Below, in pieces: positions 7,930 through 50,817 of a stretch of DNA of 64,000 nt. The translations under genes and the position numbers were made by a program. The stretch is from Rufibacter radiotolerans (lineage in GTDB: Bacteria > Bacteroidota > Bacteroidia > Cytophagales > Hymenobacteraceae): contig NZ_CP010777.1 of assembly GCF_001078055.1 (NCBI RefSeq), forward strand, positions 3,501,001 to 3,565,000, given 5' to 3'. The notes under the pieces were generated by a model. It saw only the letters and a program-made list of their open reading frames with translations. It did not search any database and was not told the DNA's origin. Each line of letters opens with the position of its first letter. Within the stretch, counting starts at the first letter, position 1.

Positions 7930-9212
7930 ACGCGTGTGGCGGTAGCTTTAAGATGGTTCACAAAATACAGCCGGAAAGTGGTGCCTTCGCCTATCACGCT
8001 CTCCACCTCTACCTTGCCGCGGTTGTTCTCCATAATTCGTTTTATGATGTAAAGTCCTACGCCGCTGCCTTCTACGTGGTCATGGAACCGCCGGAACAAG
8101 GAGAACAACTGAGGACCGTATTTAGTTATATCAATACCAATGCCGTTGTCCTGCACTTTCAGGACAATGTAGCCCTCTTCCAGCGCAGAGGATAGGAAAA
8201 TCTGCAGGGGCCGTTGGGGCTCACGGTACTTGATGGAGTTAGAAAGCAGGTTGTACAGCAGGCTGAAGAGGTTGTCTTTGGAGAAAAACACCTCGGGCGC
8301 GGCCGAGAAATCTACCTGCAGGTCTGCCCCGGAGGTCTGTAAGTGCTCGGCTAGGCGGGCTTTCACCTGTGCCAGCACCTCCACAAAGGGCACCATGTCC
8401 ATTTTTGACTCTTCCAGCGGTTTCTGGATGCGGCTTACCTCGGTTAGGTTGTTGAGCTTGCGGTGAATGCGGGCCACGGAGTCATCTAAGCGGGCAAAGA
8501 GTTGGTTCAGCTCTGGGTTATCTGGCGGCAGGTCTTCCCTGATGGCCTCCACCAGCCCGCTCACGTTCAGAACCGGCCCTTTTAAATCGCGGGAGGCGTA
8601 GTAGACAAAGTCGTCCAGGTCGGCGTTTTTCTTTATCAGCTGGTAATTCTTGGCCATGAGCTTTTTCTCAGCGCGCTGGCGTTTCTTGATCTCCTCTTCC
8701 AGGTCGCGGTTGGCGGTGATCCATTGGGCGCTGCGCTCTTGCACCTGCTTCTCCAGCTCCTGCTTAGACTCCTGCAGCGCTAGCTCTATTCTCTGGCGTT
8801 CTTCTATCTGCTCGCGCAGGGCGGCATTGTTTCGGCTCAGTTGCCGCAGGCTGGGAATGGCCAGCAGGTTGGGAATGGCCTTGAAGAGCATGATAGCCGC
8901 CACGTTGGCAATAAGGCCCAGCACCAGTTTCACTATGAGCAAAGGCTCCAGCCAGCGGTCATTCACCCAGAAACTGAACAGGTGCACAATGCCGCCCATA
9001 AGGGCGATGACCCCGAATAAGAGTAGTACCAGCTTGCGTTCCCGGTCTTCGCGTTTAAAGGTGAGGTAGAAAAGAATAGCCGCCACCATGAGAAAAGCGG
9101 TGACCACCAGAAGCTCACTGGCCAGAAACAGACCTTCCAGCCCTTTGGCCTTGGCAGAAACGCTTGAGGGTATTTGTTGGGGTAATTGATAAAGAAGCAC
9201 GGTTCTGTCCAT
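7926..9212 (-). CDS. membrane sensor histidine kinase-like protein lacking the phospho-accepting His
   Basis: 428 residues. Four hydrophobic segments (about 32-50, 60-80, 88-110 and possibly 112-120) are followed by a long coiled coil (about 125-195), a HisKA-like helix and a HATPase domain. The ATP-binding boxes look intact: N box LLYNLLSNSIKYRE, G1 DNGIGI, and G2 GSGVGLYIIKRI. The HisKA core reads DDFVYYASRDLKGPV, where the family expects SHDLK: residue 208 is Arg (codon CGC), not His. It therefore may not autophosphorylate in the usual way. It overlaps the response regulator by 4 bp. It could be a degenerate kinase, an allosteric partner or an ATP-binding sensor. Confidence 0.88.
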   Translation of the reverse strand: MDRTVLLYQLPQQIPSSVSAKAKGLEGLFLASELLVVTAFLMVAAILFYLTFKREDRERKLVLLLFGVIALMGGIVHLFSFWVNDRWLEPLLIVKLVLGLIANVAAIMLFKAIPNLLAIPSLRQLSRNNAALREQIEERQRIELALQESKQELEKQVQERSAQWITANRDLEEEIKKRQRAEKKLMAKNYQLIKKNADLDDFVYYASRDLKGPVLNVSGLVEAIREDLPPDNPELNQLFARLDDSVARIHRKLNNLTEVSRIQKPLEESKMDMVPFVEVLAQVKARLAEHLQTSGADLQVDFSAAPEVFFSKDNLFSLLYNLLSNSIKYREPQRPLQIFLSSALEEGYIVLKVQDNGIGIDITKYGPQLFSLFRRFHDHVEGSGVGLYIIKRIMENNRGKVEVESVIGEGTTFRLYFVNHLKATATRV

Positions 9213-9313
9213 GAAAAGTATAATCTGAATAAAAACGGCCTACTACCCTATAATGTTTCCTTGCCCATGGCCAGCTCCTCAAATGTAGCATAAAGCGACA
9301 AAGGTTAAAAACC

Positions 9314-9354
9314 AGAATCGGTCTCCCACTCTCAAAAAGCAGAAGACCGATTCT
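9314..9354 (-). terminator. stem-loop after the cysteine synthase-like gene
   Basis: AGAATCGGTCT and AGACCGATTCT form a perfect 11-bp stem with a 19-nt loop, 36 bp after the stop at 9390. It is followed on the minus strand by TTTTTAACC. Confidence 0.5.
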
Positions 9355-9356
9355 TA

Positions 9357-9387
9357 CCTGTTTTCAGGAAAACGGCTCTAAAACAGG
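9357..9387. repeat. degenerate copy of the intergenic palindrome family
   Basis: CCTGTTTTCAGGAAAACGGC followed by TCTAAAACAGG. It immediately follows the PLP-synthase stop codon. Confidence 0.5.
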
Positions 9388-9389
9388 AA

Positions 9390-10370
9390 TTAGTCCAGGT
9401 AGCCCTGCTCGCGCATCCAGTCATCATTGTAGATCTTGCCCAGGTACCGGGTGCCGTGGTCTGGCAACACCACCACCAGCACATCATTCTCAGAGAGGTG
9501 CTCGCGGGCGTATTCCAGGGCGCCGTACACGGCAGAACCGCAAGACCAGCCCACAAATAGTCCTTCTTCCTTGGCCAGGCGGCGGGTCATGAGGGCACTG
9601 TCTTTATCGGTTACCTTAATGAAGGTGTCAATGAGGTCAAAGTTCACGTTCTTGGGCAGGATGTCTTCGCCAATCCCCTCGGTTTTGTAGGGGTAGATCT
9701 CATTCTCGTCAAAGATGCCGGTCTCTTTGTATTTCTTGAACACAGAGCCGTAGGTGTCCAGGCCTACTACTTTAATGTCTGGGTTCTGCTCTTTCAGGTA
9801 TTTTGAGATACCGCAGATGGTGCCACCGGTGCCTACCCCCGCCGCGAAGCAGGTGATCTTTCCTTCGGTCTGTTTCCAGATCTCGGGGCCGCTGGTGTCA
9901 TAGTGCGCCGCGGTGTTGGAGAGGTTGTCATACTGGTTGGGGTAGAACGAGTTGGGAATCTCCTGGTTCAGGCGCTTGGCCACCGAATAATAGGAATCTG
10001 GGTGCTCGGGGGCCACGTTGGTAGGGCAAACAATCACCTCGGCGCCCACAGCCTTCAGAATATCCACCTTCTCCTTGCTCTGCTTGTCAGACATGGTGAA
10101 GATGCACTTGTAGCCTTTGGCGATGGCGGCCAGGGCCAGGCCCATACCGGTGTTCCCGGAGGTGCCCTCAATAATGGTTCCGCCTGGTTTCAGGATGCCC
10201 GCCTTCTCGGCGTCTTCTACCATGCGCAGCGCCATACGGTCTTTCACCGAGTTACCCGGGTTGAAATACTCCACTTTGGCCAGCACGGTGGCTTTTATGC
10301 CGTCTGTGACGCTATTCAACTTCACCAGGGGGGTGTTGCCAATGGCCTCAATAATATTGTTGAAATACAT
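9390..10370 (-). CDS. PLP-dependent cysteine synthase / cystathionine beta-synthase family
   Basis: 326 residues from ATG at 10370 (MYFNNIIEAIGNTPLVKL). A longer frame upstream adds 16 residues unlike the family. This is a fold-type II PLP enzyme: PLP Lys43 in NPGNSVKDRMA, substrate-binding EGTSGNTGMGLA, and the phosphate-binding loop GVGTGGTICG. There is no C-terminal CBS-domain pair. It makes either cysteine from O-acetylserine or cystathionine from homocysteine and serine. The TEGIGEDILPKNVNFDLID stretch resembles bacterial cystathionine beta-synthases more than CysK; this is a judgement by eye. A TACCTTTG box lies at 10479-10486, about 110 bp upstream. Confidence 0.9.
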   Translation of the reverse strand: MYFNNIIEAIGNTPLVKLNSVTDGIKATVLAKVEYFNPGNSVKDRMALRMVEDAEKAGILKPGGTIIEGTSGNTGMGLALAAIAKGYKCIFTMSDKQSKEKVDILKAVGAEVIVCPTNVAPEHPDSYYSVAKRLNQEIPNSFYPNQYDNLSNTAAHYDTSGPEIWKQTEGKITCFAAGVGTGGTICGISKYLKEQNPDIKVVGLDTYGSVFKKYKETGIFDENEIYPYKTEGIGEDILPKNVNFDLIDTFIKVTDKDSALMTRRLAKEEGLFVGWSCGSAVYGALEYAREHLSENDVLVVVLPDHGTRYLGKIYNDDWMREQGYLD

Positions 10371-10478
10371 AGTTTTAAGAGTGATGGGTGAAGGGGAGCA
10401 AAGGTGACCAGGCGTCACCGGCGCAACCGCCCTGTTCTGTTGGTTTTTACCTATTTAACCTCCTGCAAAACGCAGCTG

Positions 10479-10486
10479 CAAAGGTA
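10479..10486 (-). promoter_or_regulatory. candidate -7 box for the PLP-synthase gene
   Basis: Minus-strand TACCTTTG matches TANNTTTG. No convincing -33 TTTG was found at the right spacing. It would imply a leader of roughly 100 nt. Confidence 0.4.
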
Positions 10487-10527
10487 ACCAAAATTTTTAA
10501 GACCTGCCGGGCCGGGGCCGGGCGCGC

Positions 10528-11220
10528 TTACCAACGGGGGTCATAGAAGCTGGTGGTGTCTCTAAAGAACCGGTTATAGCGCAGGCGGGCCTGCCTAATG
10601 GAGTCCTGCCGGATGATGAGTCGCTCCAGCTGTTTCTGCCGTTCACGCTCCTCCATGAGTTTAGCCACGCGGCTACGTTGCCGGCCCTCCTTAGAAAACT
10701 GCTCATACAAAAACGTAAGCGGACTTATAAGCGGGTCTGCGGGCGCGGGAGACCCGGGCGGCACCAGGAAAATTGGAATATTGGGGTTTAACCGGGGTTT
10801 GGGCGGCGCAGGCCGGGGTTTCATGTTCCGCAGCACGCGGTCTACTTTCTCTGGGGTAGCCTGTTGCGACACCTTCACCTCCTTTAACTGCACGGTTTCC
10901 TGCTGCAGCAGAATGTTCACCCGCAGCTCCGTGACGCTGCGCAGGGCGGGCACGTACGTTTTCTCTTTGTAACCCAGCGCCCTAAACACCAGCGTGTCTG
11001 AGGCCGGTATCTGCAGCCGGAAGGCGCCGTGCTCATTGGTGGCCACCCCCTGCCCGGTGCTTTTCTGGTAGACAGAGGCCCCCGCAATAGGTGACTTGTC
11101 TTTTTCCTGCAATACCTGGCCGCTTACCCAGATGCTGTGCCCTGCGGTTTGAGCTGCTCCCTCCTGCGCTACCAGAAGGCCAAGAACCAAGAAAAACAAG
11201 AAGCCTAAACGCTTGACCAT
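10528..11220 (-). CDS. carboxypeptidase-regulatory-like domain envelope protein
   Basis: 230 residues from ATG at 11220 (MVKRLGFLFFLVLGLLVAQ), a clear Sec signal. Residues about 30-115 form a CarboxypepD_reg-like beta-sandwich: VSGQVLQEKDKSPIAGASVY, then the family's G-x-A/V-T-N-E-x-G-x-F and LVFRALGYKEK. The C-terminal half is proline-rich, then strongly basic (RQRSRVAKLMEERERQKQLE), and ends FFRDTTSFYDPRW. This domain usually stands before TonB receptors, but here no barrel follows. It is probably a periplasmic or outer-membrane-associated protein of unknown role. It lies downstream of the repeat lipoprotein gene, separated from it by a terminator. Confidence 0.75.
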   Translation of the reverse strand: MVKRLGFLFFLVLGLLVAQEGAAQTAGHSIWVSGQVLQEKDKSPIAGASVYQKSTGQGVATNEHGAFRLQIPASDTLVFRALGYKEKTYVPALRSVTELRVNILLQQETVQLKEVKVSQQATPEKVDRVLRNMKPRPAPPKPRLNPNIPIFLVPPGSPAPADPLISPLTFLYEQFSKEGRQRSRVAKLMEERERQKQLERLIIRQDSIRQARLRYNRFFRDTTSFYDPRW

Positions 11221-11250
11221 ACAGTAGCAGAGGAGCAATAACCTTAATAG

Positions 11251-11284
11251 AAAAAGGCCTACCCTTCTTACTGGGCAGGCCTTT
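11251..11284 (-). terminator. Rho-independent terminator
   Basis: Minus strand AAAGGCCTGCCC-AGTAAGAA-GGGTAGGCCTTTTT: a long stem with a T tract, 20 bp after the stop at 11305. Confidence 0.85.
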
Positions 11285-11304
11285 CAAAGATAGCTAGAGA
11301 ACGG

Positions 11305-12042
11305 TTAGTTCTCCAGTTTTATTTTAGTGTCACCAGACTTGTATTTCACTTCGCCCTTCTCACGTTTTATTTTGGCGTTATCGGTTTTGATTTTAGACTC
11401 GTCGCCGTCTCTTTTCACCTTGGTATCGCCGGCCTTTATCTTGGCCTCATCACCGTCTACTTTCATTTTAGACCCGTCCTGGGCTTTGTGCTTCAACTCA
11501 TAACCATAGTACTTGTTACGGTTGCTTTCATAGGCCTTGAACTGCTCTGGGGTAAGCAGGCCTTTCACTTCCATGTCTACGTTGGTATTCAAAGACTCCA
11601 GCTCATTGTAATAGGTGGTAGGATAGTCCTCGGGGTAGCCGGTTACTTCCATGTTGCCTTGCGTGCTCACGCCGCTGTCTGCCACCATCATGTCACTGGT
11701 GTTGTCTGCGGCGTACCCGGCGCTGCGGTTGGTGCTGCTGTAGCGGGTCTCCAGCTCGTTCATGTGCCGGGCCCGGTTGTAGAGCACCGTTCTTATGCGG
11801 GCCTGGGTGGCGGTATCCAGGCGCAGGTCCTGTGACATCTGCGAGGTCATGCGGTTGGCCCGTTCCCGGTACTCCGCGTCATAGTTATAGGTGGTGGCGG
11901 TACTGTCAGTAGTAGCCCCCGATGCGTTGTCTGGCGTGCTGCTATCATTGTTCTGGGTTTCTGTTGAAGTGCCGGCGTCTTCACGGCAGGCTGTAAAAGA
12001 CATTGCCCCTACCACCATCAAAATCAAAAACTGCTTTTTCAT
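11305..12042 (-). CDS. lipoprotein with C-terminal 16-residue Lys-rich repeats
   Basis: 245 residues. A signal peptide with lipobox (MSFTAC, Cys19) is followed by a Ser/Thr/Asp/Asn linker and a helical middle region with QDLRLDTATQARIRTVLYNR and LTPEQFKAYESNRNKYY. That spacing recalls metal- or stress-responsive helical proteins that use an LTPEQ motif. Residues 191-245 are a tandem repeat with an exact 16-residue period, units beginning SKMKVDGDE, TKVKRDGDE, AKIKREKGE and TKIKLEN, each holding a second KxK. Alternating Lys suggests stacked beta strands with one charged face. Not recognised as a named family. Confidence 0.85.
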   Translation of the reverse strand: MKKQFLILMVVGAMSFTACREDAGTSTETQNNDSSTPDNASGATTDSTATTYNYDAEYRERANRMTSQMSQDLRLDTATQARIRTVLYNRARHMNELETRYSSTNRSAGYAADNTSDMMVADSGVSTQGNMEVTGYPEDYPTTYYNELESLNTNVDMEVKGLLTPEQFKAYESNRNKYYGYELKHKAQDGSKMKVDGDEAKIKAGDTKVKRDGDESKIKTDNAKIKREKGEVKYKSGDTKIKLEN

Positions 12043-44934: not shown

Positions 44935-47900
44935 ATGAACCTGCGTACCCGTGCTGCTTTTGGCTTCCTGCTCCTGCTTACCTGCTGCCTGTTTCTGGCC
45001 CTGCCCACCCGGGCCCAGCAGAACCTGGCCAACAGCCGTACCACTAGCTTCTACACGTACGTCTATAAAATCACAGACGAAGAGGCCAGGCAGCTCTATG
45101 GGAAAGGCATGCACGCGGCCCGGGAAAGTTTTTTCCATTCCAAAATAGATTCCTTCCCTACGAGTCTGGCGTACCAAAAACGGTTGCCGCAGGGGCATTA
45201 TCTGTATGCGCATTCCGCCGGGGCAGACCTGGAATATTCGCTCACCACCGTAACGCATTCCCACCTACAGCTATTAAAAAACCATGTAGACCTGGCAGCG
45301 GTGGTATATGACACGTTAGGGCAACCAATCTCTACCGCCCAGGTGAAGCTCAACAGGAAGACGGTGCCGTTTGATGCCGCCTCCCAAACCTACCGGCTGG
45401 CCCAACACAAGAAGGGCGGGCTCCTGTCTGTCACGCACCAGGGTTTCACCTTTTATGTGCCACTTGAAGGGAAAAAGAACAAGCCTCCCCTTTGGAAAAT
45501 GATGGTCTACGGAAGACCCGTTTCCTATTTGTGGCAACCATTCCGGGATGTTTATTACAGCCTGAAATACCATAACCCTCAGGGCATGGTGCAAGACGTT
45601 TTCTCTCTCTTTGATGGTTCTTTTATTGAGGAATGGGAAGAAAACCGCAAACCAAAAGGCTTTCTGGCACTGAACAAGCCTATGTACCAGCCCGGCGACA
45701 CAGTGCGCTACAAGGCATTCATACTAAAGAAAAACGGCAGGCCCTACCAAAAACCTTTAGTAGCTGAAATCTGGGGCGAAAGTAAAGCAAAACGGATAGG
45801 TACCCTTACCCCCTACCGGCCGGGGGCTTATGAAGGGTACTTTGTATTGCATGACTCCCTGCAGCTGCGCCTGGACAGGAACATTCACCTGGACTTGGTG
45901 CGTGAGAAGAAGTACGATGACCAGGATATTATCTCCACTAATTTCCGGTATGAAGATTATGAGCTGAAGGAAAACACCTTTACCCTCCGGCTGGAGCAAA
46001 AAGAATACTATGCCGGCACTACGAACAAGGTAATTATGCGGGGTGCAGATGCCAACGGCCTTACCCTTACCGGGGCCCGCGTGGAACTAACCGTTCTAAC
46101 CAGGCAAGTCAAGTATACCAAAGAGGCAGTGCAGTTTATCCCTGACACGTTGTGGGTGCACCAACAGACCCTGGAGAATAGCGGGGAAACCACTATTGCC
46201 TTACCTGCCTCTATTTTTCCGAAGGCCAGGATAGAGTATGAGGTAGTGGCGGCTTTCCTGAATTCCAACAATGAGCGTACCGTGCAGAGTGCCAAGGGCA
46301 CGTACTCTTTTGAGGCAGGGTACCTCCAACTCACGCTAAAGAATGACAGCGTGCTGGCGCAGTATAAAGAAGGGGAAAAATCGGTCCCAAAAGCGGCCAC
46401 CCTGGTAACCTGGGACAGCCAGCATGAAAAGTTACAGACCCAACCGGTACAGCTTCCGGCGCTGCTTCCGCTTCAGGCTAATGCCCGGGAATATGAGCTT
46501 CGCGCCGATAAAATGAGGGTCACCTTGCCCCTTAAAAACGAAAGCGCCAACCTGCAATTTTACTCAGAACGCACGGGTGATTCCCTTTTCCTGACCCTCC
46601 AGAACCCCAGACGCCTGCCCTTCTGGTATTTTATTTACCGCAACAACCAATTGGTTGACCGGGGCCAGGACACTACCGCCCTATGGAACTACCACCGGAA
46701 GGCCAGTCACGAAGACCCCTATTACGCCTCAGTGCAGTACCTATGGGCGGGCCAGGTAGAGAGTGAGGAATACAACGCGCCCTTCCGGAAAAAGGAATTG
46801 GATATACAGGTAAACGCCCCTGCCACGGTGTATCCGGGGCAGCAGACCACCCTCACGCTGGAAGTGAAAGACGCTAAAGGAAAACCCGCGCCTGATGTAG
46901 ACCTCACGGCTTATGCCCTTACCTCAAAGTTCAAAGATGCTTCCCCGCCAACGGTGCCATCTTTGGGGGTTTACCGAAGCAGAAAAAGTAAAAGCTCCTT
47001 CAAGATAAAGGAACCCGCTACCCATGGCGCCCAACTGCTGCAGTGGCAACATTGGCGGAAAGCCATGGGCCTGGACAGCCTTGCCTATTACCAACTGCTC
47101 TACCCAGAACAAGGGTTGTTCACCAACTACGCTTTTCCGCCGGACAGCCTAACTCAGTTCGCGCCGTTTGTGGTGGACTCTGGCCGGGTGGTACCAGTGC
47201 ATGTGATTTACCTCAACCAGGTACCGGTTTATTTCTCTGGCACAGACGTGGTGCCGCCCTACTCTTTCCCCACAGACAGCGGATACCATCACCTCAAACT
47301 ACGCACCGCCAAACACCTGATCACGGTAGACAGCGTGTACCTGAAGCATGGTCAAAAACTTATTCTCAGCATTGACCAGAATAAAATGCCTGGCTTGCTC
47401 AAAGCCGCGGAGAAAGGAAGACTCACCGATCTGGAGCAGGGCTACCTGAGCCAATACCTTTTGCCCGTGGAGCAGAACTTTACCCAAGGCCTCTCCTACC
47501 TCAGTCAGGGTCGGGTAGTGCAGTCCTTGCCTAACGGCGAAGACAGGGGCCCCTTTTATAAAACCTCCAGAAACGACGCAATTCTCGTTGGCCCTTTCAA
47601 GCCCACTTCGGTGCAGTTCCACTCTTATGGCAACTATACCACCAGCTTCACCCATGAAGGAAATTACCTCTACCGTTTTGAGCCTGGTTTACTGAAAATG
47701 CGCGAAAAACAGACCTTCCCCGGTAAGGTTGGGCTACCGTTTTTAAACACCTCTTACAAACTTTCCAGAACCACCCTGGCCGAAATCTCCCTCACTGAGG
47801 AACGCTTGCAACAGCAGTGGGAAACCACCCAAAGCGAATACTGGCTCTCAAAAACACTGGAACGCCAGGAGTACGGCACTAAGCCAGGCACCGGCCGGCT

Positions 47901-50817
47901 GCAATGGCAACTGGATTCCACTTTCCAGATCAGCCCCAGGTTTGTCTTTTTGTATAAGCCCAATGCCACCAACCAACAGATAAAGATGTACCCCGGGAGT
48001 GTGACCCAACTTCCGAAACTAGAGCCAATGGCATACCATCTGGTACTGGTTTTCCCGGATCATAGCCAGGTCAGCGCCCTGGTACAGGTAAAGTCAGACG
48101 GGGTGCTACGCCTTAATTTCACCAAGACCCAGCTAAAGCCTTCCACCTCTGAAACCAGAGCCCTGGAAAACTACCTACTTAAAAGCGCAGAGGCACTTAG
48201 ACAGAGAAGTAATCCAGGGGCTATCCAGATGCCTGCGCCCACGCCTCCAGCGCCAGAGGTGTACAGAGGAAATTCGGCTTCCTTTTCAAACCAGGTGCGG
48301 GGCCGGGTGCTTGACCAATTCACTGGCGAACCCATGCCAGGGGTAACCGTGCACCTGAAGGGCACCAGCTCAGCCGCTGTAACAGATATGGAAGGAACCT
48401 ACACCATAGATGCTCCTGCGGATGCCGTTTTGGTTTTCTCCTTTATTGGCTATGTTACCCAGGAAGTTCAGGTGAAAGGCAGCAACCGGATAGACGTTCA
48501 ATTAAGGACAGATGCCAGGGCCTTGGATGAAGTGGTAGTGGTGGGCTATGGAGTTCAGACCAGAAGTTCGTTATCTGCTTCAGTTGTTACTATACATAAC
48601 CAACTTAATGGCCGCGTTGCCGGAGTAGCTTTGACAGGCTCAACCAACTCTATCCGCATCAGGGGAGCCTCTTCTATCCAGGGCAATTCCCAGCCGCTTA
48701 TCATTGTAGACGGTGTTCCATTCAGCGGGATCCTGTCTGACCTGCGTGCTGATGCCATAGCAACTACTACCACCCTGAAAGACGCTGCCGCAACCGCTAT
48801 CTATGGTGCCGCCGGAGCCAACGGGGTGATCATCATCACCACCAAAAAAGGCAAAGCCAATGCCGCTCAAACCTTGCTTGCCAGTGCAGACACAGACGCC
48901 TCTGTCTCCATCAGAAGCTACTTCTCTGATTACTCCTTCTGGCAGCCGCGCTTAACCACAGACAAACAAGGCAAAGCCACGTTTCCGGTCACCTTCCCCG
49001 GCGATGTCACCAGCTGGAAAACCCACGTGCTGGCCATGGACGGTGGCAAACGCAGCGGCACCTCCTCCACGGAGATCAGGTCTTTCAAAGCCATAATGGC
49101 GACCTTGAGCGGACCCCGGTTTTTGATTGAAGGCGACAAGACCCAGATCATAGGAAAGGCCATGAACTACCTGCCAGACACCGCTACCGTACAAACCAGG
49201 TTTGCCTTCAACGGCCAAACCCTGCGAGAGCAACAGACCCTGAAACTGGCCCGGGTATATACTGACACGATCATGGTACAGGCCCCGGCCGTGGCGCCAG
49301 ACTCCGTGGAACTACTGTTTAGCTTACGGCAAGGCAACGGTTTTTCTGACGGAGAGCGGCGGCATATTGGCGTCTATAAAAAAGGCGTGCTGGAACGGAA
49401 GGGCCAGTTCATAGCACTCCACAAAGACACCACTCTCACCCTCACCTTTGACCCCGCCAAAGGCCCGGTGCATTTCTACGCGCAAGGCAATCTGCTGCAG
49501 GTTATGCTAGACGAGATCTCTTACCTGCACCGCTATGAGTACTGGTGCAACGAGCAGGCCGCCTCTAAACTCAAAGGCCTGCTGTGGGAGAAACGCATAC
49601 AAGCCCAACTGGGCAAACCCTTCGCGCATGACAAAATAGTACGTCGCCTGATCAGGCACCTGGAGAAAACCCAGCAGCAGGACGGCACCTGGAGCTGGTG
49701 GGAAACCGGCCCCGCCTACCTCTGGATCAGTCATCACGCCACTGAGGCTCTGGTCATGGCTCAAAAGGAGGGTTACCCTACTAATTTCAAGAAGCAGCCG
49801 CTGGTAGACTATCTCACCTTCCAGATGGAAAAGAAAGACGCCCCAAATAAAATGAGGGCCCTGGAGTTACTGCACCAATTGCAGGCCAAAGTTGATTTCC
49901 CGGCGTACGTAACCAACCTGGAGAAGCAACCCAAATTAACCCTGGAAGAACAGCTGCGGCTTACCCGGCTTAGGCAACAACTGAAGATGCCGGCCCCGCT
50001 GGACACCCTGCTGCATTACCGCCACACCACTATGCTGGGCGGCCTGTATTGGGGCCAGGAAAAGAGCAGCCTCTTTAATAGCCACATCTCCAACACGCTA
50101 CTGGCCTATGACATCTTAAAAGCCACCGGTAACTACCCCCGCGACCTGCTCCAGATTCAGGCCTATCTGCTGAATGAGCGACGCACTGGTCACTGGCGAA
50201 ACACCTATGAATCGGCTAGAATTCTGGAGACCCTGTTACCTGATTTGGTAAAAGAGAAAGGTAACGTGCCCGAAAACTCGCTGGTGCTAAGCGGTGCCTT
50301 GAACACCACGCTGCGACGCTTTCCGGCAGATACATCCTTTGTGCCCACCCAATCGCTCACGCTTAGGAAGCAGGGCAGCTTACCGTTGTACCTGACGGCT
50401 TACCAAAACGAGTGGATCGCCCAGCCTGCCCGAGTAGAAAAAGATTTCACGGTACGCACTTCCTTTGCCGGCACCCAAAATACCAAAGCCGTCCTGGCGG
50501 CAGGTAAACCCGTAGAACTGAAAGTGGAGGTAGAGGTAAAAGCCGATGCTTCTTACGTGATGATAGAAGTGCCCATTCCGGCTGGCTGCTCTTATGACAC
50601 CAAATCCAGCTGGGGCCGCCATGAAGCCCACCGCGAATATTTCCGGCATAAGGTTGCCATCTTCTCCAACCACTTAGACAAAGGCACCTACACCTTCACC
50701 ATCCAACTCCTACCCCGCTACAAAGGCACATACACCTTGAACCCCGCCAAGGCGGAATTGATGTATTTCCCCACGTTCTTCGGGCGGGAAGGGGTGAAAA
50801 CGGTGGAGGTAAAATAG
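44935..50817 (+). CDS. alpha-2-macroglobulin-like protein with embedded SusC-type regulatory and TonB plug domains
   Basis: 1960 residues. Signal peptide (FGFLLLLTCCLFLALPTRAQ), macroglobulin-type beta domains with the MG2 block LNKPMYQPGDTVRYKAFI near residue 245, further MG domains to about 1100, then an insert: CarboxypepD_reg-like (about 1121-1190, GRVLDQFTGEPMPGVTVHL) and a SusC-type plug (about 1195-1305, DEVVVVGYGVQT, IRIRGASSIQGNSQPLIIVD). After it come the A2M domain (FSDYSFWQPRLTTDKQGKA) and the thioester helical domain. A possible thioester motif is Cys1538-Asn-Glu-Gln1541 (YWCNEQAAS), where bacterial members have CxEQ. No beta barrel follows the plug. Probably a periplasmic protease trap or envelope-sensing hybrid. 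No pbpC partner adjacent. Confidence 0.9.
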   Translation: MNLRTRAAFGFLLLLTCCLFLALPTRAQQNLANSRTTSFYTYVYKITDEEARQLYGKGMHAARESFFHSKIDSFPTSLAYQKRLPQGHYLYAHSAGADLEYSLTTVTHSHLQLLKNHVDLAAVVYDTLGQPISTAQVKLNRKTVPFDAASQTYRLAQHKKGGLLSVTHQGFTFYVPLEGKKNKPPLWKMMVYGRPVSYLWQPFRDVYYSLKYHNPQGMVQDVFSLFDGSFIEEWEENRKPKGFLALNKPMYQPGDTVRYKAFILKKNGRPYQKPLVAEIWGESKAKRIGTLTPYRPGAYEGYFVLHDSLQLRLDRNIHLDLVREKKYDDQDIISTNFRYEDYELKENTFTLRLEQKEYYAGTTNKVIMRGADANGLTLTGARVELTVLTRQVKYTKEAVQFIPDTLWVHQQTLENSGETTIALPASIFPKARIEYEVVAAFLNSNNERTVQSAKGTYSFEAGYLQLTLKNDSVLAQYKEGEKSVPKAATLVTWDSQHEKLQTQPVQLPALLPLQANAREYELRADKMRVTLPLKNESANLQFYSERTGDSLFLTLQNPRRLPFWYFIYRNNQLVDRGQDTTALWNYHRKASHEDPYYASVQYLWAGQVESEEYNAPFRKKELDIQVNAPATVYPGQQTTLTLEVKDAKGKPAPDVDLTAYALTSKFKDASPPTVPSLGVYRSRKSKSSFKIKEPATHGAQLLQWQHWRKAMGLDSLAYYQLLYPEQGLFTNYAFPPDSLTQFAPFVVDSGRVVPVHVIYLNQVPVYFSGTDVVPPYSFPTDSGYHHLKLRTAKHLITVDSVYLKHGQKLILSIDQNKMPGLLKAAEKGRLTDLEQGYLSQYLLPVEQNFTQGLSYLSQGRVVQSLPNGEDRGPFYKTSRNDAILVGPFKPTSVQFHSYGNYTTSFTHEGNYLYRFEPGLLKMREKQTFPGKVGLPFLNTSYKLSRTTLAEISLTEERLQQQWETTQSEYWLSKTLERQEYGTKPGTGRLQWQLDSTFQISPRFVFLYKPNATNQQIKMYPGSVTQLPKLEPMAYHLVLVFPDHSQVSALVQVKSDGVLRLNFTKTQLKPSTSETRALENYLLKSAEALRQRSNPGAIQMPAPTPPAPEVYRGNSASFSNQVRGRVLDQFTGEPMPGVTVHLKGTSSAAVTDMEGTYTIDAPADAVLVFSFIGYVTQEVQVKGSNRIDVQLRTDARALDEVVVVGYGVQTRSSLSASVVTIHNQLNGRVAGVALTGSTNSIRIRGASSIQGNSQPLIIVDGVPFSGILSDLRADAIATTTTLKDAAATAIYGAAGANGVIIITTKKGKANAAQTLLASADTDASVSIRSYFSDYSFWQPRLTTDKQGKATFPVTFPGDVTSWKTHVLAMDGGKRSGTSSTEIRSFKAIMATLSGPRFLIEGDKTQIIGKAMNYLPDTATVQTRFAFNGQTLREQQTLKLARVYTDTIMVQAPAVAPDSVELLFSLRQGNGFSDGERRHIGVYKKGVLERKGQFIALHKDTTLTLTFDPAKGPVHFYAQGNLLQVMLDEISYLHRYEYWCNEQAASKLKGLLWEKRIQAQLGKPFAHDKIVRRLIRHLEKTQQQDGTWSWWETGPAYLWISHHATEALVMAQKEGYPTNFKKQPLVDYLTFQMEKKDAPNKMRALELLHQLQAKVDFPAYVTNLEKQPKLTLEEQLRLTRLRQQLKMPAPLDTLLHYRHTTMLGGLYWGQEKSSLFNSHISNTLLAYDILKATGNYPRDLLQIQAYLLNERRTGHWRNTYESARILETLLPDLVKEKGNVPENSLVLSGALNTTLRRFPADTSFVPTQSLTLRKQGSLPLYLTAYQNEWIAQPARVEKDFTVRTSFAGTQNTKAVLAAGKPVELKVEVEVKADASYVMIEVPIPAGCSYDTKSSWGRHEAHREYFRHKVAIFSNHLDKGTYTFTIQLLPRYKGTYTLNPAKAELMYFPTFFGREGVKTVEVK

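Follow-up and report, generated by a model that had tools for sequence, protein, structure and literature searches.

A bacterial alpha-2-macroglobulin with the N-terminus of a SusC transporter in its bait position

Introduction

What bacterial periplasmic alpha-2-macroglobulins (A2Ms) guard against is an open question, and one that a bait made from a host protein addresses; a bait of known host origin names either the protein at risk or the machine to which the trap is attached. A gene of Rufibacter radiotolerans raises the question directly: why should an A2M carry, in its middle, a piece of a SusC transporter? The gene lies in the window, by which we mean the whole stretch of 64,000 nucleotides that was analysed, and an earlier note on this DNA had its coordinates and 1960-residue length right, reading it as an A2M scaffold with an internal SusC-type plug and a possible thioester. 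Here we describe the protein and its relatives, and weigh what such an insert might be for.

A thioester A2M without a lipobox

The A2M scaffold is borne out by PF00207 and bMG10, both above the Pfam cut-off (Table 1), and the domain order after the insert is A2M, helical thioester domain (TED) and bMG10. The earlier claim of MG domains in the N-terminal part (residues 28-1080) holds in part: AF2 predicts MG-like beta domains in the modelled portion, while the MG2 match there is below threshold. In a structure search the best matches were A2Ms, CD109, C3 and C5 (E to 6e-26). Among solved proteins the closest relatives of the insert are SusC proteins, and those of the part after it A2Ms. The signal peptide has no lipobox, a pattern that, judged by eye, recurs in the homologues sharing this architecture (class A), and for this reason we do not file the protein in the canonical lipoprotein bMG (YfhM/ECAM) subfamily; it is probably periplasmic or secreted. 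Neighbouring genes (a sucD-like gene upstream on the opposite strand, a UV-endonuclease-like gene downstream) gave no operon or functional clue, and the genes upstream of the Xanthocytophaga homologue, the only other upstream flank examined, are unrelated.

Table 1. Features of the A2M gene and its product, in positions of the window.
Feature	Residues	Position	Strand	Basis or remark
A2M gene with SusC-derived insert (class A)	1-1960	44935..50817	+	1960 aa; Pfam/NCBIfam, full-length homologues
Signal peptide (...LPTRA/QQ), type I, without lipobox	1-27	44935..45015	+	Sequence reading
MG2, partial, sub-threshold	241-279	45655..45771	+	Pfam
NTE / CarbopepD_reg domain	1121-1202	48295..48540	+	CarbopepD_reg_2 1.2e-19 (Pfam); AF2 pLDDT ~95-97
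Ton box LDEVVVVGYG	1197-1206	48523..48552	+	Most conserved stretch of insert
Predicted disordered segment (Ton box end and shortened plug start)	1202-1250	48538..48684	+	pLDDT 34-42
C-terminal plug half (PLIIVDG...ATAIYGAAGANGVIIITTKKG)	1251-1309	48685..48861	+	Pfam, AF2, SusC-model alignment
A2M domain PF00207 (MG7 equivalent)	1335-1422	48937..49200	+	Pfam 4.5e-15
Helical TED	~1501-1810	49435..50364	+	AF2 helices, pLDDT mostly 80-95; alignment to canonical bMG
CNEQ thioester motif, with Tyr1534 (C-4) and Tyr1536 (C-2)	1538-1541	49546..49557	+	
bMG10 / C-terminal MG domain	1835-1946	50437..50772	+	Pfam 3.9e-15
Cys1885 (PAGC), second conserved Cys of class A	1885	50587..50589	+	
ELMY (EXMY motif), in bMG10	1941-1944	50755..50766	+	L, M, Y invariant in homologues

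The CNEQ that the earlier note had picked out does lie in the helical domain, and CxEQ is invariant in 31/31 homologues, Cys1538 and Gln1541 included. In the same set the Tyr at C-2 is invariant and C-4 is Tyr or Phe in nearly all members; in SaA2M and ECAM it is these two tyrosines that shield the thioester, together with the Met-Tyr of EXMY, which bacterial A2Ms have in the thioester pocket (PMC4498604). Going by these residues, a Cys1538-Gln1541 thioester bond probably forms. Cys1538 and Cys1885 are the only two cysteines after residue 45; every class A homologue has the latter, set in PAGC or PASC in bMG10 (the L066 row is frameshifted), and its position is Phe in the canonical paralogue.

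A SusC N-terminus without its barrel

Residues 1119-1312 are a SusC N-terminus, with NTE/CarbopepD_reg domain, Ton box and shortened plug in SusC order. The SusC-type domains that had been recognized earlier are thus confirmed, by CarbopepD_reg_2, by a Plug match above the Pfam cut-off (residues 1218-1298, 2.7e-7) and by a profile built from 52 SusC N-termini, which scores 211.7 bits over 1118-1312; the Ton box, the bait position and the shortening of the plug had gone unnoticed. At residues 1120-1312 the NCBIfam model OMP_RagA_SusC matches over its positions 2-212 of 981 only (E 1.8e-67), and since the match is confined to these first 212 positions there is no beta-barrel, as the note had said. 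Among solved structures the NTE is matched best by a SusC NTE (BT3090; 9hfj), at rmsd 0.7 and TMt 0.89. Chance similarity or artefact is ruled out by the NCBIfam and profile scores and by conservation among homologues.

The Ton box residues L, E, V, V and V are invariant in 21/21 inserts, and a Ton-box regular expression finds the motif in 38/39 inserts of class A and of the more decayed class B (see below) versus 36/52 of the SusC set; the SusC Ton box in Bt1763 reads DEVVVTG (PMC7782687). Behind the Ton box the plug has lost a single block of 13 residues, with shorter gaps in addition, and the stretch from Ton box to the plug-core YG motif is 65-102 aa long in A2M inserts (median 81.5) versus 103-134 aa in SusC (median 105.5), ranges that do not overlap, so that every insert is shortened. 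A full plug able to seal a barrel is ruled out by this shortening. AF2 finds order in the C-terminal half of the plug only and leaves residues 1202-1250 unordered, a prediction that is based on 21 sequences and may under-predict order, and no solved plug structure was among the matches listed in the structure search. As for the suggestion that the plug might fold on its own, the NTE does resemble 9hfj, but in the model the plug does not form a complete independent unit.

The insert lies in the bait position

The insert ends immediately before PF00207. In a profile alignment with P0007, the canonical bMG that this genome also encodes, the alignment starts at residue 474 of segment A1 (residue 1333 of the whole protein, P0001) versus residue 1139 of P0007, that is, right after the insert in the one and right after its own bait in the other; in a profile comparison, residue 696 of the human A2M chain falls on P0001 1315, and as we take the human bait region to span ~690-728, the human bait meets the insert at its end. 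From the two alignments together we conclude that the insert occupies the bait position, which in C3, C4 and C5 holds the anaphylatoxin domain. The distance from insert end to CxEQ is 229 aa, and from ECAM bait end (~956) to CLEQ (1187) it is 231 aa, by positions taken from PMC4498604 and partly inferred. The insert stands where a bait would, before PF00207, and part of it is predicted by AF2 to be disordered; we propose that segment 1202-1250, between NTE and half-plug, may be the bait loop. The SusC model gives no signal in P0007, used as a control. A canonical lipoprotein bMG with CLEQ adjoins a PBP1C-like gene (L013:2925-8360 and 214-2778), and its bait has no SusC signal. We consider it very probable that the protein is an A2M whose thioester is functional and whose bait position is taken by a SusC-derived segment.

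This position bears on the idea, raised in the earlier note, that the plug guards or senses outer-membrane transport. Being in the bait position, the segment fits a decoy bait or TonB docking better than a pore-closing plug, and we do not regard guarding or sensing as the best reading. A plug that enters empty SusC barrels as a spare cork, or that senses transport, would at least explain why the segment is a SusC plug and why the shorter class D relatives (see below) keep the plug core more fully, but the A2M plugs are all shortened, only their second half is predicted to be ordered, the plug is tied inside a 1960-aa protein and most class B members have lost it, which leaves this explanation very improbable.

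Distribution, origin and selection of the insert

Class A genes occur in ~47/121 genomes of the window's family (our own count of strong matches), in 11/16 of the same genus and, at E < 1e-200, in 5/297 genomes across the phylum. The named matches comprise Rufibacter, Sabulibacter, Pontibacter, Xanthocytophaga and Cesiribacter, as well as Chitinophaga, Terrimonas, Proteiniphilum and Bacteroidales MAGs, so that insert-bearing homologues are spread across the class Bacteroidia. Nearly all of the class A homologues have the insert, and the plug is thus not absent at random among close relatives. One class A member (L060, ORF from ~base 1233) has a degenerate plug and Ton box and keeps the thioester motif. 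Short C-terminal gene remnants (G049:C1:2418334-2418624, in L075, and similar ones in G109, G113 and G081) suggest that the class A gene has been lost repeatedly.

The best tree found unites the 36 inserts that were tested in a single clade and lies 13.8 log units above the free search (p-AU 0.70), which fits one old origin without proving it. The inserts do not mix with most of the SusC genes in the R. radiotolerans genome, and the one-clade tree, which the test does not reject, is the better one; the first and larger of the trees comes from a careful search that stopped before its end. On these grounds we rejected a recent origin by gene conversion from SusC genes of the host; in one genome (G080) no long near-identical SusC DNA was found, the longest similar stretch being 46 bases at 87%. 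Values of dN/dS (0.09-0.27 for NTE and half-plug, 0-0.16 for the Ton box) indicate that all three are under purifying selection. Least conserved, and fastest in more distant pairs, are the linker 1081-1118 and the indel-rich disordered stretch 1208-1252, as expected for a bait loop.

Decayed and truncated relatives

Class B proteins are ~1970-2240 aa long; those examined in full have a TED and CxEQ. They have baits of decayed, sometimes permuted SusC fragments. Three (L090, L095, L106) have NTE, Ton box and plug, four (L074, L093, L096, L097) still have NTE and Ton box but a plug in decay, and those from the window's family (L108-L127) have short SusC pieces within Ala/Pro/Met-rich baits. The SusC model gives signal in 30/36 class B baits; in the controls it does so in 13/720 shuffled sequences, in 2/36 reversed ones and in 4/50 other windows. 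By motif, with related sequences counted as independent, the Ton box is found in 26/36 (expected 1.6; the other 10/36 lack the regular expression), LxGxxxG in 15/36 (expected 0.06), IxRG in 23/36 (expected 1.8) and the plug core in 4/36. A plug piece precedes the Ton box in L114, L109 and L115 and, on weak evidence, in L121, L122 and L126; the same order was judged by eye in L092 and L099. SusC pieces were not found in the baits of deeper Bacteroidota A2Ms.

Such degraded and permuted forms are what might be expected if the bait loop tolerated almost any insert and a captured SusC piece simply decayed there without function, the more so as few gene families of these genomes are as large as SusC (R. 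radiotolerans alone has 49 Plug matches). We nevertheless hold this improbable, given that NTE, Ton box and half-plug are all under purifying selection, and given the retention of the insert across families of Bacteroidia, the Ton box that outlasts the rest, the fit to one old origin and not to repeated capture, and the lack of long near-identical SusC DNA in G080.

Class D proteins, P0005 and P0006 among them, are ~900 aa long and consist of MG2, a Ton-box-like strand (LxxVxVxG), a plug and a PF00207-like end, with no TED; they are widespread in the class Bacteroidia, with matches in 61/119 genomes, some of these matches being to SusC plugs. A tandem pair of barrel-less plug proteins (L014:5754-8516 and 8666-11380; 920 and 904 aa) has MG2 and a truncated A2M end and no TED. 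Relatives of class D of ~1450-1600 aa (L188, L189, L190) have CxEQ and plug-free, Ala/Pro/Met/Lys-rich low-complexity baits.

A trap baited with a SusC mimic?

Our confidence in the anatomy is high and in the function moderate. As best explanation overall we favour, at about an even chance, a periplasmic thioester (type I) A2M whose bait is a SusC mimic. The bait region of a type I A2M would have been replaced long ago by the periplasm-facing SusC N-terminus, and the flexible stretch of Ton box and plug start (~1197-1250), with the folded NTE on one side and the half-plug on the other, would be presented to proteases as a loop resembling the part of SusC that is exposed and cut once the plug leaves the barrel. 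Cleavage in this loop would release the TED, expose Cys1538-Gln1541 and trap the protease covalently before it could strip the many SusC transporters of the cell of their plugs or Ton boxes. The SusC plug, when mobile, is indeed lost by proteolysis (PMC7782687), and we favour mimicry because of this, because the segment lies at the site of bait cleavage and because plug pieces persist alongside the Ton box. Taken by itself, mimicry as the purpose of the insert is put forward tentatively, at somewhat under an even chance. Class D counts against it, since a plug at the bait position there goes without a TED and so needs no covalent trap, and the retention of the Ton box, a TonB-binding motif, fits docking at least as well. 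The ten class B baits without a Ton-box match and the SusC-free baits of deeper Bacteroidota also speak against it.

Docking would mean that the Ton box of the bait loop binds the TonB C-terminal domain, tethering the trap beneath SusC or letting TonB pull on it, and thus positioning it where the large SusC pores open. Both the docking and this placement we judge rather unlikely, yet docking follows close behind the mimic bait, as the Ton box is the best-kept element and as class D, though it lacks a TED, keeps a plug. The five invariant Ton box residues are the core of the insert, the motif is more frequent in class A and B inserts than in the SusC set and persists in class B baits in which little is left of NTE and plug core, class D has a similar strand, and it is by the Ton box that SusC binds TonB (PMC7782687). 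Against docking, the LxGxxxG and IxRG pieces that class B has kept lie outside the TonB-binding motif, and a trap held by its own bait must be released in order to close. The broader statement, that in Bacteroidia protease traps have as their bait the captured and maintained TonB-coupling end of the phylum's own SusC transporters, and either impersonate SusC or are armed or moved by TonB, we regard as evenly balanced. If true, either a bait evolved by taking over sequence from the very protein it protects, or a Ton box works without a barrel.

Comparison with known systems

The component parts are already known, and databases may well list single members of the group as plug-containing or A2M proteins. 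No description of an A2M with SusC NTE, Ton box or plug in the bait position was found in the open-access literature (a Riemerella match proved unrelated), and as open-access papers only were covered, this silence is weak evidence that the SusC N-terminus as an A2M bait is, as it seems, new.

With the type I bacterial A2Ms, E. coli ECAM/YfhM and Salmonella SaA2M, the protein shares the MG scaffold, PF00207, the bait position, a TED with CxEQ, Tyr at C-4 and C-2, and EXMY in the C-terminal MG domain; it differs in its bait of SusC NTE, Ton box and half-plug, its lack of a lipobox and its extra bMG10 Cys, and it is distant from the canonical family (~23% to the canonical paralogue over the aligned part). 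The NTE fold, Ton box and plug motifs (LxGRVAGV, IRIRG, PLIIVDG, ATAIYG, GVIIITTKKG) of SusC/RagA transporters are all recognizable, but they are internal to an A2M, with the plug shortened and the barrel absent. Class D likewise has a plug directly before a PF00207-like domain, together with MG2, a signal peptide and no barrel, but it ends at that domain, has no TED or thioester and has a weaker Ton box. Complement C3, C4 and C5 and human A2M also place a module or bait just before PF00207/MG7, cleavage of which leads to conformational change and thioester exposure; the insert described here is bacterial, is unrelated to the animal anaphylatoxin or disordered bait and comes with no evidence of a released signal.
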